Source: a virus. Taken from it: 64,000 nt of DNA. The notes under the pieces were generated by a model. That model saw only the letters and a program-made list of their open reading frames with translations, had not been told where the DNA came from and made no database searches. The DNA lies in the IMG/VR virus record IMGVR_UViG_3300027749_000063, positions 1 to 64,000 of that record; one strand, given 5' to 3'. Below are positions 14,186-21,725 of the stretch, piece after piece (position 1 is the first letter of the stretch; every line of letters starts with the position of its first letter). A program made the position numbers and the translations under genes.

Positions 14186-14659
14186 ATGAAAGGACTTTTT
14201 GTAAGTCTTTTTCTAATTCTTTCTATTCCCTGCTTTTCTCAGATTAAAGTGATGAAGGCAGGGGATGGTTGGGATTTAAAGGTAGACTCAGCCTTAGCAT
14301 TAATTGCTCAAACAGATGTCAATGTATACATTAGATTAATAGATGTCTGCGACATAGTAGACTTTTGGATTAGTCCCTATTCTTCTAATAACATCTCTCA
14401 AGACGGAAACACTATTTACATAGCCGTAGGAGATGCAAAGATGAACTCAATAGCCAACTTAGCTTGCGTTCTAGTACATGAGAGTCTTCACTTAAACTAT
14501 TTGTTACATCCAGTAACTCAGAGTCTAGAAGAAGAAGAAGAACTTAAGTGCTACATATACGAGTTAAGTTTTATAAACAAACTACCAACCCCAGAGCCTT
14601 GGTTACAGGCAAACGCTGTAGAACAAATACACAAATTAAGTAAAATAAAAACAAAATGA
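14186..14659 (+). CDS. exported HExxH metallopeptidase-like protein, 157 aa
   Basis: A Sec signal peptide (MKGLFVSLFLILSIPCFSQ) is followed by a small domain with HESLH at residues 98-102 and an acidic helix (about residues 115-126) that can give the third zinc ligand, as in gluzincins. The start codon directly follows the stop of the endolysin gene, and the stop overlaps the next ATG, so it is in the lysis operon. It probably acts in the periplasm, perhaps on envelope proteins or peptidoglycan peptides. Similar HExxH proteins are not a standard part of phage lysis cassettes. Confidence 0.65.
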   Translation: MKGLFVSLFLILSIPCFSQIKVMKAGDGWDLKVDSALALIAQTDVNVYIRLIDVCDIVDFWISPYSSNNISQDGNTIYIAVGDAKMNSIANLACVLVHESLHLNYLLHPVTQSLEEEEELKCYIYELSFINKLPTPEPWLQANAVEQIHKLSKIKTK

Positions 14660-16557
14660 ACAAATTAATTAAAATCTTCATCGGAGTGCTCACATTGTTG
14701 GTTGGCAATGCATCAGCACAATCTTCTGCTACCTCTCCAGGTACAGGTCACTGGGTAGTAATTGACTCAGGCTATCAAGTAGCTACTAACACTGTTGGTA
14801 AAACAGTTGCTCCTCTACATTTCTATAATACTTCTACTTCAGAGAAGATCACAGGTATGCAATTCCGTGTGTTCTACGATAAAACTGCTTTTACTGCAGT
14901 TGTTCCCTCTCTTAAGATTTCTACTACAGATCAATACCTTCAGTACGTAGATAGTAACACACAAGGATTCTTAACAGTTACCTTGGCTTATACAGGTACT
15001 AATTCTACTTACAACTATTCTAATGGAGCTACATTTGATTTGACTTTTACTCACGCTGCTGAGTCTACTTGGAATACTTTAGATTCTATCAAGACCTTAA
15101 AAGTTGCAGGTGTTAAGTCGTTCTCTAACAGAGCTGCTACTAACTGGGGTAATGATACTACTTTGGTAGTTTACTCATATGGTGGACGCTTCAACCAAAA
15201 GGTATTGAGATTTGCTACTAAGTTTAAAAACGTTACAGGATCTAACGCTAAGAATCTTACAGTTAGCTTAGAGAAAAGAGCTAAGGGTTCTTCTACTTGG
15301 ACTGAAATTGCTGCACAGAAAACTAACTCTAATGGGGTTACTGTATTCCGTAAGTTCTTAGATACTACTTATTGGGATGTACGTATTGTAGTTAAAGGCG
15401 ATACAATGACTCCAGGTAACGTATTCTCTACCGCTGATGCACAGAAGATCAATCAATCTATCTTAGGTCAATACACTCCTGCAGGATTTGATTACTACAC
15501 AATGGATGTAAACGGTACTACTGGTGATATTTCTATTGCTGATGTATACTCTGTATACGGACGTTTGGCAGGTAGATTCTCTGCTTGGCCTAATTCTAAG
15601 AAAGATGTAATGTTCTTTACAGTTGCTGAATATAATTCAATCAACGGATCTGCTTCTAACTTAACTGCTACTTACTCTACTGTAAATAACTTTACTTATT
15701 CTGTAGATGGAAGAGATTCTATTACTTACTATGTAGCTGTTAAAGGAGATGCAAACTCTACAGGATTTAAGATGGCTCGTTTGACTCCTATCAAAATTAC
15801 TAATCAAGCTAATGCTAAGAAATACATTATTGATGAAACTGTAACTTATGATTTCCCAGCAGAAACTATTGAGGTAAACATGCCTAAAGTATCTGTAAAT
15901 GAAGGAAACCTAGTTAACGTTCCTGTTAAAGTTTTGACTAACGGAAAGAACTTAGGTGCACTACAGTTAGATCTTAGGTATGACACAGCTTACTTAGAAT
16001 TTAAAGGTATTGAGAACACTGAAAAGATGATGAAGTGGACTACTTACATGAACCCTTCTAATGGTATTGTTTCTTGGGGAGGTGCGGACTTAACTAACGA
16101 AAACTTACTTAATGACGGAGAACAAGCATTTACAGTTCAGTTCATTGCTAAGAAGCCCCAAGATAGTTGGGCAACTGCAGCTTTATGGACAGGTGCTAAA
16201 TACGTAGGAGACAAGGACTCTAAGGATATGAACATCATTCCTGCTATGGGTATTGTAGAAGTACGTAGAGTTAACAAAGGAACTGTTTCGCTTAATGACC
16301 TTAACTCTATTATAGTATTCCCTAATCCTACAGAAGGAGATATTCAGATTCAATTTAAAATTAAAGAAGACTCTAACGTAGACATGGCTATCTCTGATGA
16401 GGTAGGAAGACGTATACAGACCATTCTAAAACAACGTATGCCTGCAGGTAAGTACAAGTATAGTGCAAACCTAGATCGTCTCTCTGATGGCGTTTATATT
16501 CTTTCTGTAACTACTGAGACAGAAGTATTACATTCTAAAATAATCGTACAAAAATGA
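14656..16557 (+). CDS. exported cohesin/dockerin-like protein with T9SS sorting tail, 633 aa
   Basis: Signal peptide (residues 1-21, ending NASAQ). Then a cohesin-like beta domain (about 30-150), a segment with a dockerin-like calcium-repeat (STADAQKINQ at about 258 and DVNGTTGDISIADVY at about 286), a second cohesin-like domain (about 409-535, LVNVPVKVLTNGKNLGALQL), and a C-terminal domain from about residue 553: VFPNPTEGDIQIQF, DEVGRRIQ, LSDGVYILSV, KIIVQK. The last part fits the type A sorting domain of the type IX secretion system in length, motif order and position. The protein should be exported by Sec and moved across the outer membrane by the host T9SS. Confidence 0.8.
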   Translation: MNKLIKIFIGVLTLLVGNASAQSSATSPGTGHWVVIDSGYQVATNTVGKTVAPLHFYNTSTSEKITGMQFRVFYDKTAFTAVVPSLKISTTDQYLQYVDSNTQGFLTVTLAYTGTNSTYNYSNGATFDLTFTHAAESTWNTLDSIKTLKVAGVKSFSNRAATNWGNDTTLVVYSYGGRFNQKVLRFATKFKNVTGSNAKNLTVSLEKRAKGSSTWTEIAAQKTNSNGVTVFRKFLDTTYWDVRIVVKGDTMTPGNVFSTADAQKINQSILGQYTPAGFDYYTMDVNGTTGDISIADVYSVYGRLAGRFSAWPNSKKDVMFFTVAEYNSINGSASNLTATYSTVNNFTYSVDGRDSITYYVAVKGDANSTGFKMARLTPIKITNQANAKKYIIDETVTYDFPAETIEVNMPKVSVNEGNLVNVPVKVLTNGKNLGALQLDLRYDTAYLEFKGIENTEKMMKWTTYMNPSNGIVSWGGADLTNENLLNDGEQAFTVQFIAKKPQDSWATAALWTGAKYVGDKDSKDMNIIPAMGIVEVRRVNKGTVSLNDLNSIIVFPNPTEGDIQIQFKIKEDSNVDMAISDEVGRRIQTILKQRMPAGKYKYSANLDRLSDGVYILSVTTETEVLHSKIIVQK

Positions 16558-16904
16558 ACATAAAAAAAGCACTTGGTTTTACCCAAGCAGAACCAGTAGC
16601 AGTAGATTCTAAAAACAGGTTCTACTACATGCTACAACAAATGCAAGCCAATCGTTGGAGAATTACCGCTATCGTATTAGGTTTGTTTACTTTAATTATT
16701 CTCGGTATCAATGCAGCAGTATTTTTAGGAGCTTCTATTGGAGAAGACTGGAAAGAAATGCTACTTATTCTCTTAGGTGCTTTTGTAGGTAATTTAAACA
16801 AAGTAGTTGACTACTGGTTTAACTCTGAAGACAGAGACAAGATGTTAATACAGAAGGTCGATGAGGAAGACGGAGAATCACTATCAAACACAACTAATCC
16901 ATAA
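16554..16904 (+). CDS. two-helix inner membrane protein, 116 aa
   Basis: Two hydrophobic helices (about residues 36-60 and 67-82) with a short loop, a basic N-terminal region, and a charged C-terminus (NSEDRDKMLIQKVDEEDGE). The second helix with GAFVGNLNKVVDYWF resembles a group of phage holin-like membrane proteins. It overlaps the T9SS-tailed gene by four bases (ATGA). It may be a second holin or a scaffold for the exported proteins coded around it. Confidence 0.65.
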   Translation: MNIKKALGFTQAEPVAVDSKNRFYYMLQQMQANRWRITAIVLGLFTLIILGINAAVFLGASIGEDWKEMLLILLGAFVGNLNKVVDYWFNSEDRDKMLIQKVDEEDGESLSNTTNP

Positions 16905-16908
16905 TATC

Positions 16909-17229
16909 ATGTCAGAAGAAAAAGAAGAAGGCGGTATGTCCGCTATCAAAAAAACAATCATTGGAGCAATCACTACTGCTGTAACAGCAGGAGGTGCTTG
17001 GTTTGCTACTCACTTAGGTGGTGGAGAAGATGAAAAGCCAGAAACTCCAACTGCTGTAGCAGCCCCTGCACCTGTGATTAACATCACTACGAACAACGAA
17101 CAAAAGCAACAAGCAAATACTGGTGGTGGTAACACTACTATTATCAGAGAGAAGACAATTGAAAAAGCTGCTTCTCCTGCTCCTGCTCCAGCAACTAAAC
17201 CAAAGCCAGATGAAGAAGATCCTTGGTAG
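16909..17229 (+). CDS. membrane-anchored Pro/Ala-rich protein, 106 aa
   Basis: One N-terminal transmembrane helix (IIGAITTAVTAGGAWFATHL, about residues 16-35), then a Pro/Ala/Asn-rich linker and charged end. The layout (N-terminal anchor plus long extended periplasmic or cytoplasmic part, overlapping a lipoprotein gene) is like an inner-membrane spanin subunit. The downstream lipoprotein gene overlaps this one by 20 bases in another frame, as in Rz/Rz1 pairs, though that lipoprotein is far larger than Rz1. The start at 16909 is preferred because it gives a typical start (MSEEKEEGG) and avoids overlap with the gene before. Confidence 0.6.
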   Translation: MSEEKEEGGMSAIKKTIIGAITTAVTAGGAWFATHLGGGEDEKPETPTAVAAPAPVINITTNNEQKQQANTGGGNTTIIREKTIEKAASPAPAPATKPKPDEEDPW

Positions 17230-17899
17230 TCTGTTATTGACTGTTGTATTGTTTGGTTGTGGTAGTATGAAAACAACCACAGATGATGAGCCTGTAGTAT
17301 CTAAGGACATCTCAAGTGTATCTGGTTATACAGATTCTATTAAAAGAACAGTTCAAGTAGTTAGTGTAGACATGACAAAAGTCTTAAGTTTGTATCCTGC
17401 TTTACAGGAAAAGAACGTAGGCTTAGGTTTTGCAGAATCCGTATTAGACTATTTAGATGAAACAAATCGTTTTGTATTTACTGAGGAGAAGAGTGAGATC
17501 AAGGAGAGGATGGTGACTCAGTTCAAAGCTTCAAAGAAAGGTGTATTTGATGAACCCATTGATGGAAAAGGTAAGATTAAACCTGCTCAATATTTTGTGT
17601 ATGTTACTGTGGCTGATTTTGCTGTTGATGAAGACGAGCAAGCTGAAGGTCTTAAGTCAAAGGTTGCTGTCACTACCTTTATTCGCTTACAAGTTCGTTT
17701 TGTTGACGCAAAGACAGGTCAGATATACATTGGATCTGGAGAAGGCGAATCACAAAAGATAGGCGAATCTTTCTTAAAGTCTCTTGACGATATGAAGTTT
17801 TCTCAAAGTACTGTCGGTAAAGCTACCAGAAAGTCTCTAGAAACTGCTTGTACTAATGTGATTCAAAATCTCATTAAGGCAGGTGTATTTAAAAACTAA
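17210..17899 (+). CDS. CsgG-like outer-membrane lipoprotein, 229 aa
   Basis: The chosen start gives a lipoprotein signal peptide MKKILGSLLLTVVLFGCGS with lipobox LFGC. An upstream ATG in the same frame adds a Leu/Gln-rich stretch that is a shadow of the previous gene. The mature part follows the CsgG family pattern: RFVFTEEKSEIKERM after a helix, a strand VYVTVADFAV, the RLQVRFVDAKTGQIYI strand pair, and a C-terminal helix (KATRKSLETACTNVIQNLI). CsgG forms the outer-membrane pore of the curli secretion system. Here it would be a lipoprotein ring or pore coded in a phage exported-protein block. Pore formation is inference. Confidence 0.65.
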   Translation: MKKILGSLLLTVVLFGCGSMKTTTDDEPVVSKDISSVSGYTDSIKRTVQVVSVDMTKVLSLYPALQEKNVGLGFAESVLDYLDETNRFVFTEEKSEIKERMVTQFKASKKGVFDEPIDGKGKIKPAQYFVYVTVADFAVDEDEQAEGLKSKVAVTTFIRLQVRFVDAKTGQIYIGSGEGESQKIGESFLKSLDDMKFSQSTVGKATRKSLETACTNVIQNLIKAGVFKN

Positions 17900-17966: not shown

Positions 17967-18608
17967 ATGGCAATTGTATACTCACATACTAGACTTGATA
18001 CTCAAGAATTGTTTTATATTGGTATAGGTAAAACAGAAAAACGAGCATATTCAAAACATGCTAGAAATAAGTATTGGAATCATATTGTAAATAAAACCGA
18101 ATATCAGGTAAAAATTTTGTATACAGATTTAACTTGGAAAGAAGCTTGTAAGAAAGAAATAGAATTAATCAATCAATATAAAAGAAAGATAGAAGGAGGA
18201 ATACTAGTAAACTTAACTTTAGGAGGTGACGGAAATACTTCTCCTTGTACAGAGGAAACTAAAAGAAGAATATCTGCATCTTGGAAGGGTAGAACTAGTG
18301 GTAGAAAAGGTAAAAAGTATGAAGATTGGTATTCAGAGAAAGAAATAAAAACTAAAAAAGAAGAATTAAGAGGTAGGATGGCTGGAACTAATAATCCTAT
18401 GTATGGAAAAGAAAGATCAGAACAAGTAAAAGATAAAATAAGAGAAAAATTAAAAGGAAAACCTGTATCTACAGAACAAGCTATTAGAAATAGAACAGTA
18501 TGTTTGGGTAGAAAGTATATAAGTAAAGAGGGTATTAAAAAGAAAGTTATACCTGAAGAAGTAGAAAAATATTTAAAAGAGGGATGGAAACTTGGACAAA
18601 AACACTAA
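17967..18608 (+). CDS. GIY-YIG homing endonuclease, 213 aa
   Basis: The N-terminus has the GIY-YIG core in the form VYSH...FYIGIG (about residues 4-21), followed by a conserved helix with KHARNKYWNHI. The C-terminal half holds NUMOD3-type DNA-binding motifs (GTNNPMYGKERSEQVKDKI, about residues 140-158, and KGKPVSTEQ). It is a free-standing selfish endonuclease that cuts a related allele and spreads by repair. It is more Lys- and A-rich than its neighbours, consistent with separate ancestry, and overlaps the next gene by 25 bases. Confidence 0.9.
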   Translation: MAIVYSHTRLDTQELFYIGIGKTEKRAYSKHARNKYWNHIVNKTEYQVKILYTDLTWKEACKKEIELINQYKRKIEGGILVNLTLGGDGNTSPCTEETKRRISASWKGRTSGRKGKKYEDWYSEKEIKTKKEELRGRMAGTNNPMYGKERSEQVKDKIREKLKGKPVSTEQAIRNRTVCLGRKYISKEGIKKKVIPEEVEKYLKEGWKLGQKH

Positions 18609-20068
18609 GAGTTATTTTTATTTTAATTTTTTTAGTCTGTAGTCCCCTTGCAGCCCAACAATTTGTATACCAGTACACAGATCCGTGTACACAAGAGTTA
18701 AAATTTATTAACGCAAATATGTCTAGTCCTATAGTAATTGCTTACTATGGACAAGTCCAAACTTTCTCTTACACAGAATTAACAGACGGAACATTTGATA
18801 ATTGGATAAATAGTGTATATTTGAAGTATAAAAATACATCACCCTGTCAAGGAGTTGGAGTAACAACTACAACAACAACGACTACAAATGCAACCTTAAA
18901 CATTGTAAGTAATGTTATGAACTTAGGGGCTATATCAAATGTAGGAAGTGTTAACGTAGATGTAGGCTCTAGTACTTCTTCAGGAACTAACGTAGGAACC
19001 AACAATAAAACCAATAACAATGACAATCGAACTAACTCTCGGAATCGTACTAGCAGTAGCTCTAGTAATTCTAATTCTTCTGGCAGCTCGTCAGGAGAAA
19101 GTGGACAATCAAACGGTGGATCTAACTCCTCAGAAACCTCAGGAACCTCAAGTGGAAATTCCCCAGATCCCAATTCAGGAAGCAGCGGAGATGGTGCTTC
19201 AGGAAGCAGTGGCTCCAGCTCCAGTAGTGGAAGTAGTAGCGGAAGCAGTAGTGGAAGCTCCAGTGGTAGCAGTGGAAGCAGAAGTGGCTCAGGAAGTAGT
19301 GGTAAAACCGAAGAAAAAACGGAAGTACAAACCGAGAAACCCTCAGAACAAAAAGTAGAAGAAACTAAAACTGAGCAACAAAAGTCTCAGTCTAGTGGTA
19401 CTGCAAAAGCAGCCAATAAAGCTAAAGCCGAAGTTGCTAAGCCTGCGATCTTAGTAACTGGTGATTTAGTTGGTATTCAGACTAAGTCTGATGGAGCACA
19501 AGATGCAAGAGGTACTGCTTCCTTTACAAGAGTAAAAGGGGATGGTACTTCTTCTCTTGGGTTTTCAGCCGATTACATGCTTAATGCTAAGATCGGTAAT
19601 ATCTCATGCGTACGCTCGTGGATAGGGGCAAACAAAAAAGGCAACAAACACATTAGTGTAGTATCAGATGGAATGAGTCTGATGCCTAAAGCCTTCTCTA
19701 ACACAGCTCTGTTTGTTAGAGTAAATTCAGTCAAGAACTTTACAGCACTCTATGGAGCTGCTGGAACTTATGGTAAACTCTATGGAGAACAGATGATCTC
19801 TACTATTGTTATAGGAGGTTTTATGTATAAGGGAAAACTTACTAAGCATATAGACGCTACAGTTATTATGGCTGGTATCTATTCTCCTTACTCTAAATAT
19901 TATACAGAGTCTTTATTTAAAGCTAAACCTATTGTAATTCCTTTTGTAAACCTTACCTGGAAGATGACTAAGACATTTGGTATAGGAGTTACAGGAGGAG
20001 GAACCTATGTAGCTGGTCAAGACATTCTTAACTTTCAACTATTAATGGGAGCAAAGTTATTAATATGA
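18584..20068 (+). CDS. exported outer-membrane barrel-like protein, 494 aa
   Basis: Signal peptide at about residues 9-25 (RVIFILIFLVCSPLAAQ), a 60-residue domain with three Cys, a Thr/Asn stretch, then a long Ser/Gly-rich low-complexity linker (about 140-245), a charged KTEEKTEVQTEK segment, and a C-terminal part (about 285-494) of alternating strands with Gly and aromatic residues ending LLMGAKLLI, like a small outer-membrane beta-barrel. The start overlaps the homing endonuclease gene. The linker DNA also carries a second open frame (19020-19358). A surface role such as blocking receptors or anchoring is inference. Confidence 0.65.
   Translation: METWTKTLRVIFILIFLVCSPLAAQQFVYQYTDPCTQELKFINANMSSPIVIAYYGQVQTFSYTELTDGTFDNWINSVYLKYKNTSPCQGVGVTTTTTTTTNATLNIVSNVMNLGAISNVGSVNVDVGSSTSSGTNVGTNNKTNNNDNRTNSRNRTSSSSSNSNSSGSSSGESGQSNGGSNSSETSGTSSGNSPDPNSGSSGDGASGSSGSSSSSGSSSGSSSGSSSGSSGSRSGSGSSGKTEEKTEVQTEKPSEQKVEETKTEQQKSQSSGTAKAANKAKAEVAKPAILVTGDLVGIQTKSDGAQDARGTASFTRVKGDGTSSLGFSADYMLNAKIGNISCVRSWIGANKKGNKHISVVSDGMSLMPKAFSNTALFVRVNSVKNFTALYGAAGTYGKLYGEQMISTIVIGGFMYKGKLTKHIDATVIMAGIYSPYSKYYTESLFKAKPIVIPFVNLTWKMTKTFGIGVTGGGTYVAGQDILNFQLLMGAKLLI
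19020..19358 (+). CDS. possible embedded overlapping gene, 112 aa
   Basis: This frame lies wholly inside the Ser/Gly linker of the 18584-20068 gene in another frame. It starts with ATG and gives a strong transmembrane helix (TLGIVLAVALVILILLAA), a Pro/Gln/Val/Ala-rich middle and a Lys/Arg-rich end (KPKKKRKYKPRNPQNKK). Ser/Asn-rich DNA read out of frame tends to give Leu/Val/Ile, so a chance origin is possible. But the linker uses AGC and TCC codons that are rare elsewhere in this AT-rich genome, as expected if both frames are selected. Anchor plus extended arm is a spanin-like layout. Confidence 0.35.
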   Translation: MTIELTLGIVLAVALVILILLAARQEKVDNQTVDLTPQKPQEPQVEIPQIPIQEAAEMVLQEAVAPAPVVEVVAEAVVEAPVVAVEAEVAQEVVVKPKKKRKYKPRNPQNKK

Positions 20069-21267
20069 GATGGGTTGTTATTCTATTCTTCTTTGTGAAC
20101 TCACTGAGTGCACAATTCACCTATTCTGGATACTTGTATAGTGCAAATGGTTCAGGTGCCTCTAACGTCCCTGTAAAGCTTTATAAGAGTACAGCAGGTG
20201 CTACTACTAAGTCAGGTACTTTTGCTAAGATAACATCAGGTATTCCTTCAGATAGAGGAAGAGGAACCTCAGTACTTTTTTCTACTGCTAATACAGATGA
20301 AACATCTGTTGCTGTTACATTTCCTTCTGGATTTAGTCCTTCTTACGCAGGCACTACCTATTCATCAGGTCACGTAAATGCTAACTCATGGTTTACTTTT
20401 GGAACAGGTTCTAGTTCTGGATATAATGGAAATGCTACCAATCCTAACCAACCAACTATTCATATTGGTTCGGTAGATAATAGCTCTACAGATAATAATG
20501 TTTCTTATATTTCAACTGAAAGTTATACAGATGCAACTTACGGAGATGTGTTTAGAGTAAGATATGAAGGTAACTGTAAATATTCAGGAACTGGAGTGAA
20601 CTACACCTGGGATTTGTACTTTATTAAAAGCCAAGCTTCAAAACAAATAGTAGTTTGGAGAACATTCACCGCAGATGGTTCTAACCAAGAAATAATGGGT
20701 ATATCTACAGGTAGTGCTTGGTTAGCAAGTACACTAGTTACTTCAGGTTCTTTTTCTGGTACTAGTTGGGAAATAAATACATCCTCAAGTACTACAACAT
20801 CATCTACCTCATTAGATGCTACCTCAAATACAAACTCATCAGGATACTATTCTTTTTCAAGAACTACAGTAACCGGAGATCAATTTACAATTCAAGTAGA
20901 TGCTCCAACCAGAATACAGGCTTATACTACAACAGACATTCAAGCAGTATCCGACCTCATTCTTAATAAAACAGCTAAGACTGGTTTGACGTTTCAAATG
21001 TTTGATGTCAATGATGATTCTAAAATAACTGTGGCAGATAAATACTACGTAGCAGCAAGAAAGGCAGGAAGGTTTTCTAAATGGAGAATAGCTCCTGATG
21101 TGAGGATCTTTACAACTGCACAATACAATTCAATTGTAGCAGCAACGACAAATGTAAGAACAACTTACCCAGGAGTTACTAATCATACAACTTCTACTTT
21201 AACTAGTGGAGGAACTTTAAATCTATATCTAATAGCTCCTGGATACTCTGGAGCAGTAACTTATTAA
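20065..21267 (+). CDS. exported dockerin-like protein, 400 aa
   Basis: Signal peptide (MRWVVILFFFVNSLSAQ), a short beta-sandwich-like start (SGYLYSANGSGASNVPVKLY), a large Ser/Thr/Gly-rich beta domain (about 60-250) and a C-terminal region related to the T9SS-tailed protein: FDVNDDSKITVADKYYVAARKAGRFSKW (split over residues about 313-340) and IFTTAQYNSI. These positions match DVNGTTGDISIADVYSVYGR, AGRFSAW and FFTVAEYNSI in the other protein. The DxNxDxxI pattern suggests a calcium-binding dockerin-type repeat. No T9SS tail is present. It overlaps the barrel-like gene by four bases. Confidence 0.65.
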   Translation: MRWVVILFFFVNSLSAQFTYSGYLYSANGSGASNVPVKLYKSTAGATTKSGTFAKITSGIPSDRGRGTSVLFSTANTDETSVAVTFPSGFSPSYAGTTYSSGHVNANSWFTFGTGSSSGYNGNATNPNQPTIHIGSVDNSSTDNNVSYISTESYTDATYGDVFRVRYEGNCKYSGTGVNYTWDLYFIKSQASKQIVVWRTFTADGSNQEIMGISTGSAWLASTLVTSGSFSGTSWEINTSSSTTTSSTSLDATSNTNSSGYYSFSRTTVTGDQFTIQVDAPTRIQAYTTTDIQAVSDLILNKTAKTGLTFQMFDVNDDSKITVADKYYVAARKAGRFSKWRIAPDVRIFTTAQYNSIVAATTNVRTTYPGVTNHTTSTLTSGGTLNLYLIAPGYSGAVTY

Positions 21268-21278
21268 CTATTAAAACT

Positions 21279-21725
21279 ATGAAAAAACTATTTATACTTT
21301 CCGCTTTAGTCACTATGATGACTTCTTTGAGTGCTCAATGCTACAAAATTGACACTGTAACTTCAATTGCTACTGTAACAGAGATAGGAGGAAGACCTAT
21401 AATCTTTGGAGCACAAACAACTCTAGAAGAGATTGCTTCTTCAAAGTACCAATTATGTAATGAGGGCAGTCCTATTTCAGGAACAATCAAATCCATTGCA
21501 ATGCCTGAACAACTTGTAAATATTGTAGGTTTACAGTTTCTGAAAAGAGAATATATTGTAAGTACAGAAATTAACGTAAATGGAATTCTTCTTCAAGGAG
21601 AAGCTAGTAAAGTAGTTTACGTTAATGCTATGTTTATTTCTGTAGAAGGTATTCCTCATAACAGAAAAGCTTATTCTAAGGCTTTAGAGAAGTCGTTTAA
21701 GAATGGGTTTGAAAGTTTAAAATAG
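21279..21725 (+). CDS. exported protein of unknown family, 148 aa
   Basis: Signal peptide MKKLFILSALVTMMTSLSAQ with the usual Bacteroidota A-Q end. The mature part is beta-rich with two Cys and a basic C-terminal helix (KAYSKALEKSFKNGFESL). It closes the exported-protein block and ends with TAG. No family is recognised. Confidence 0.65.
   Translation: MKKLFILSALVTMMTSLSAQCYKIDTVTSIATVTEIGGRPIIFGAQTTLEEIASSKYQLCNEGSPISGTIKSIAMPEQLVNIVGLQFLKREYIVSTEINVNGILLQGEASKVVYVNAMFISVEGIPHNRKAYSKALEKSFKNGFESLK

Follow-up and report, generated by a model that had tools for sequence, protein, structure and literature searches.

Protein A, which a crAss-like phage encodes and which carries a T9SS domain, is not a lone protein but forms the constant part of a conserved envelope cassette of several genes. 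We propose, with a probability of about 0.5, that the cassette serves for surface display, in which A would be anchored through the type IX secretion system (T9SS) of the host, the tip of a second phage protein, B, would be held at the cell surface, and the masking of receptors would be the most likely purpose. Display is supported by the T9SS domain of A, by a cohesin that is recognised both by Pfam and by its fold, by the linkage of A to B, by the swapping of tips in B and by the presence of the cassette in unrelated phages of Flavobacterium-like bacteria.

The window, that is the whole stretch of 64,000 nucleotides that was analysed, is part of an IMG/VR record of 99,219 bases. The phage is crAss-like, as its terminase, portal and major head protein are related to those of this group (phrog_6681, phrog_6547, phrog_11589), and many crAss-like records share a similar portal with it. 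The features of the cassette and the domains of its two main proteins are listed in Table 1.

Table 1. Genes of the cassette and domains of proteins A and B, with positions in the window.
Feature	Position	Strand	Basis
Secreted HExxH-type protein, immediately 5' of A and overlapping its start	14186..14659	+	HESLH motif; 37/41 long loci
Protein A, predicted T9SS cargo with a cohesin, proposed constant anchor of the cassette	14656..16557	+	Pfam, NCBIfam, conservation
Signal-peptide-like N-terminus of A, residues 1-22	14656..14721	+	sequence pattern
First cohesin-like beta-sandwich of A, residues 23-175	14722..15180	+	predicted strands; profile match in immuto gene 14
Transthyretin-like segment of A, residues 176-250	15181..15405	+	profile match 2igl/2g2n; weak Pfam PF00576
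Dockerin-like module of A, residues 251-370, common to B	15406..15765	+	hhalign of A against B
Second cohesin of A, residues 386-535	15811..16260	+	PF00963; profile match 6kg8/6kgc; Foldseek
T9SS type A sorting domain of A, residues 554-633	16315..16554	+	PF18962, TIGR04183; seven predicted strands
Small protein with hydrophobic, membrane-like segments, start overlapping the end of A	16554..16904	+	sequence; 38/41 long loci
Small protein with a single hydrophobic segment and an acidic, disordered tail	16909..17229	+	sequence; 40/41 long loci
Lipobox protein, weakly CsgG-like	17210..17899	+	PF03783 E 0.016, sub-threshold; 45% identical relative in immuto
GIY-YIG/NUMOD3-type endonuclease gene, optional insert	17967..18608	+	PF07460 5.1e-10
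Secreted protein with Ser/Gly-rich middle and C-terminal predicted 12-strand outer-membrane barrel	18584..20068	+	model and Foldseek
Protein B, signal-like start, dockerin-like end, exchangeable tip	20065..21267	+	profile, hhalign, linkage
Swapped tip region of B, fourth (unassigned) type in the window	20176..20930	+	DNA identity against L004
148-aa secreted protein at the end of the cassette	21279..21725	+	41/41 long loci, immuto included

The open reading frame of A starts with an ATG and encodes exactly the 633 residues described in the initial annotation. Its N-terminus is signal-like, showing the pattern typical of a Sec signal peptide, which is retained in the homologues. In the alignment of the homologues, this start is the least conserved block and is followed by a strongly conserved mature start, and Gln22 is invariant. 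The C-terminus, which had been read from the sequence as a T9SS type A sorting domain, is recognised as such by two profiles: PF18962 matches residues 554-631 with an E-value of 1.3e-10 and 41.9 bits, where the gathering score is 27, and residues 554-632 cover the full length of TIGR04183 with 40.5 bits against a cut-off of 23. The predicted model, which is of modest confidence and was read for the strand pattern only, has exactly the seven strands anticipated for such a tail, at residues 553-630. The profile of the A family matches the solved T9SS tails 8glk and 8glj weakly (E 0.006-0.02). Eight residues do not vary across 30 homologues (P556-N557-P558, G584, L609, G612, Y614, K628), and dN/dS in the tail is low, both of which argue that the match is beyond chance. 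In the pairwise comparisons where it could be computed, dN/dS is 0.04-0.30 in the tail versus 0.03-0.18 in the other domains; the tail is under purifying selection, but its constraint is looser than in the rest of A, and it is the most variable part of the protein after the signal-like start. All of the 33 phage records searched contain exactly one T9SS tail above the cut-off.

The initial annotation also proposed two cohesin-like domains and a dockerin-like repeat. The second cohesin is well supported, with a match to PF00963 at E=2.9e-13 and 50.7 bits against a curated cut-off of 24.1 (best stretch 405-526), and Foldseek searches with the model of A return cohesins, many of which are taken from cohesin-dockerin complexes, with a target TM-score of about 0.7. 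This model was built from a shallow alignment, has a mean pLDDT of 53 and was used for the strand pattern and the fold class only. The first domain (approximately residues 23-175) is a beta sandwich, with weak similarity to cohesins. It is followed by the transthyretin-like segment at residues 176-250, which the initial annotation did not include, and by a module for which the term dockerin-like is retained in the loose sense: Pfam gives no match to it on A from the window, and the best values in relatives, 0.0066 for B of L013 and 0.0031 for A of L175, do not reach the cut-off of the type I dockerin family (Dockerin_1, PF00404). A and B share this transthyretin/dockerin-like module (hhalign 99.6%, E 3.8e-24), and no cohesin or dockerin-like module was found in the other proteins of the record. 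With a loose pattern for calcium-loop repeats, a loop-like second repeat is present in 83 of the 85 distinct B proteins, while the first repeat is degenerate.

A scan with A identified relatives among viral contigs, of which the best 80 of 95 were retained, with 58-96% identity among the matches listed. A distant homolog with 28.5% identity is encoded by the cultured Flavobacterium phage immuto. The gene, which was to be sought in related genomes, is thus present in at least 80 viral contigs and in immuto, and these data support A as a T9SS-domain protein of a crAss-like phage that is maintained by selection in many phages. No PHROGs family was found for A, B or the barrel protein. One contig, the sole one seen with A split over three frames, may reflect a sequencing error or gene decay (L067:1036-2806, on the same contig as L117).

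Each of the 94 loci with complete flanks, which comprise 55 distinct sequences, contains the cohesin and the T9SS tail of A, protein B and the predicted barrel protein, and the lipobox protein was counted with them. Further loci were gathered by scans with the lipobox protein and with a fragment of A from immuto. All 41 loci longer than 15 kb carry the block together with A, and the lipobox protein, the Ser/Gly-rich barrel-end protein and the 148-aa secreted protein are always there. The best match for B in the table of long loci was sometimes A itself, and B was therefore checked apart by profile. Four-base overlaps between the HExxH-type gene and A, between A and the small membrane-like gene and between the barrel gene and B suggest that these genes are co-expressed. 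The second of the two small proteins appears to be related to gene 16 of immuto. The barrel end of the Ser/Gly-rich protein contains 12 long strands in a low-confidence model (shallow alignment with rows from the window and IMG/VR loci only, mean pLDDT 42), which was used for the strand pattern and the fold class, and all 50 Foldseek matches listed are outer-membrane barrel proteins. The NUMOD3 endonuclease gene sits inside the cassette of the window, is missing from most relatives, occurs at other positions in some of them and is outside the conserved set.

The lipobox protein resembles the curli channel CsgG over most of the PF03783 profile, but the similarity is weak and below threshold (14.9 bits versus a cut-off of 20.8). 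An identification as CsgG was rejected, as neither hhalign against CsgG from E. coli nor a profile search of the PDB gave support.

A secreted DNA/RNA non-specific endonuclease (PF01223) adjoins the cassette or lies near it in L084 (9935-10513) and in L080 (16044-16619), the former being immuto. Judged by its domain, such a periplasmic nuclease could block incoming phage DNA.

Protein B lacks a T9SS tail and varies in its middle, which is one of four unrelated tips: a C-type lectin, PA14, GEVED, or the fourth type present in the window. A comparison of the window with L004, in which A is 96% identical, shows that the DNA matches on both sides of the tip of B and is unrelated within it. The 85 distinct B proteins contain 43 lectin tips (three of them with laminin-G), 20 tips of the fourth type, 11 of PA14 and 11 of GEVED, and the tree of A (56 rows) implies 13 or more tip changes. 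In animal C-type lectins, the EPN and WND motifs hold calcium and sugars of the mannose type. Both motifs are kept in 42 of the 43 lectin tips. The tip-swapping B is likely to be the ligand-binding part of the cassette, and its ligand is probably a sugar. No catalytic or enzyme domain was found in A, B or the B types. The lineage of immuto has the same four tips, which are mostly about 52-88% alike per block of 25 residues, versus 20-60% for the dockerin-like ends. That the tips are more alike than the ends is expected under an exchange of tips, or under stronger constraint on the tips.

In two distant groups, a laminin-G-like domain is inserted in the C-type lectin tip (L175:11220-12968 and L176:6695-8389). 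Two B genes with different tips, a lectin and the fourth type, stand in tandem in L166 (4549-6822), perhaps as a step in tip exchange. B in L051 (4631-5425) has a large deletion in the lectin tip, and most of the region of the sugar site is missing. A diversity-generating retroelement was considered as the source of the tip variation, but the swapping of whole domains argues against it.

In immuto and related contigs, A is encoded by two genes, A1 and A2. The product of the first has a signal-like start, cohesin-like and dockerin-like parts and no tail, and the product of the second has a signal-like start of its own, a cohesin (PF00963 5.9e-9) and a T9SS tail (PF18962 2.4e-8). From this split form, the T9SS-sorted cohesin would seem to serve for the capture of dockerin-like proteins encoded apart from it. 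The cassette is present in crAss-like phages with portals that are 73-98% identical to that of the window, as well as in a group with 29-32% identity. It is also found in contigs in which an immuto-like helicase is present and a portal of this kind is missing, although many records are fragments, so that for any given contig a missing portal says little. Some of these contigs encode an A that is 78-79% identical to that of the window. The occurrence in both types of phages and the high identity of A suggest that the cassette has probably moved between unrelated phages.

We suggest that Sec would take A across the inner membrane and that the T9SS of the host, recognising its C-terminal domain, would take it across the outer one. 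At the surface, the cohesin of A may hold B by its dockerin-like end; B would likewise be exported, and its interchangeable middle domain probably binds glycans. The barrel protein of the cassette could provide the route of B over the outer membrane. Infected cells would then bear a lectin layer chosen by the phage, likely to cover glycans or receptors of the host surface, so that competitor phages would fail to adsorb and progeny would not be lost on the cell or its debris. A constant anchor combined with a tip that is repeatedly replaced is our reason for preferring receptor masking as the purpose. Several observations count against display. The dockerin-like module is below threshold and is also present on A, and it may thus be structural rather than a partner of the cohesin. 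B is without a T9SS tail, the tip in the window is of an unassigned type, and the structure models are of low confidence. Finally, the frequent position beside lysis genes would equally fit a role in lysis.

In such a role, the envelope proteins would breach the outer membrane or reduce its strength late in infection, replacing spanins, with A and B sent to the surface for that end. The cassette often adjoins holin-like and endolysin genes, on either side and in many lineages, and it holds small membrane proteins, a lipobox protein and a barrel protein, all of which would suit this function. However, the cassette lies beside replication or nucleotide genes instead in immuto and its relatives L168 and L172, and the repeated swapping of binding tips is left unexplained, for which reasons we regard a lysis aid as unlikely. 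It is also rather unlikely that A is exported by the T9SS and displays B for adhesion or nutrition, with cells sticking to polysaccharide, to algae or to each other and the phage gaining a larger burst or more contact with hosts. The C-type lectin, PA14, GEVED and laminin-G domains are typical for adhesion and glycan binding, and the hosts are probably polysaccharide-using Bacteroidota, but A and B have no catalytic domain that we could find, and long-term adhesion is of little gain to a lytic phage, even if clumping could aid its spread.

Lectin-like domains are known from virions, and the swapping of tips is typical for the parts of virions that recognise hosts. A and B might therefore be exported or released at lysis and decorate particles, helping them to stick to surfaces or hosts. 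We consider this improbable, as virions assemble in the cytoplasm, yet A and B have signal-like starts, and the record encodes no further protein with a cohesin or dockerin-like module on which they could dock. Bacteroidota hosts commonly encode cohesin domains and T9SS tails, and A could in principle have been taken recently from a host, or owe its place to faulty binning, and have no function in the phage. The chance of this is very slight, since A is found in many viral contigs and a cultured phage, is strictly linked to its neighbors and is under purifying selection. The genome scan gave one close bacterial match, L085, with an A that is 90% identical, in a MAG labelled as Sphingomonadaceae, which is probably a misbinned phage contig.

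Among known systems, A resembles the T9SS type A cargo of Bacteroidota (TIGR04183/PF18962) in its signal-like N-terminus and in a C-terminal domain with a PNP start, a G-rich turn and L-x-x-G-x-Y. It differs in that it is encoded by a phage, occurs once per genome in the records searched and is tied to a fixed set of envelope genes. Receptor-blocking phage proteins, such as the lipoprotein Llp of T5, which acts on a single protein receptor, are alike in the proposed purpose, namely the protection of the infected cell and of the progeny by a phage protein that is exported, although a displayed lectin is proposed here instead. The organization also recalls the scaffoldins and dockerins of the cellulosome, where a cohesin on a surface-anchored protein meets dockerin-like ends on partners with exchangeable domains, features that are here predicted from sequence. 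Unlike in the cellulosome, the phage partners carry binding tips, no enzymes were found in the B types, and anchoring would be by the T9SS. A broader view of the display cassette, as a mobile multi-gene system that borrows the T9SS of the host to build a two-part lectin coat from a constant cohesin anchor and exchangeable sugar-binding heads, in effect a cellulosome-like plug-in display that would alter which phages attach, is put forward tentatively.

The initial annotation stated that no standard phage module of this kind was known. This does not hold for phage T9SS cargo as such, which was reported in 2019 and 2020, but no account of this cassette was found in the literature searched (which covered few subscription papers), including work on phages with dockerin or CsgG. 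The ‘Cryophage’ has three T9SS-tailed genes, with the tail on variable proteins (endoglucanase, GH39, PA14), for which the authors suggest superinfection exclusion (Bellas et al. 2020, PMC7468147). It is thus similar in having T9SS-tailed phage proteins, one of them with PA14, and strong variation among phage variants. In the present cassette, however, the tail is on a constant cohesin protein, and the variation is on a separate, tail-less partner. De Jonge et al. (2019, PMC6949934) also described T9SS sorting domains in some gut phages with BACON repeats, close to the head genes. These phages are likewise related to crAssphage and have the sorting domains upstream of the head genes, but they differ by the BACON repeats, and no cassette of a cohesin protein and B was described for them. 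While occasional T9SS-tailed phage genes were known before, with no system stated behind them, the new finding is a conserved cassette in unrelated Bacteroidota phages in which a T9SS-sorted anchor is combined with a tip-swapping partner that probably binds sugars. Should the cassette work as proposed, it would be a new route for lytic phages to remodel the surface of the host. The cassette makes it possible to test the use of the T9SS by phages, the pairing of cohesins and dockerins beyond cellulosomes in flavobacteria and the role of surface glycans in the competition among phages, and a cultured pair, immuto on Flavobacterium sp. LMO8, is on hand.

A separate observation concerns L002 (8351-12075; record positions 72351-76075), which encodes two adjacent fibre-like proteins with a near-identical N-terminus (MATLFNTKIKDTYQSLLKLEDNTILTTTTKN) that differ in the rest of their sequences.
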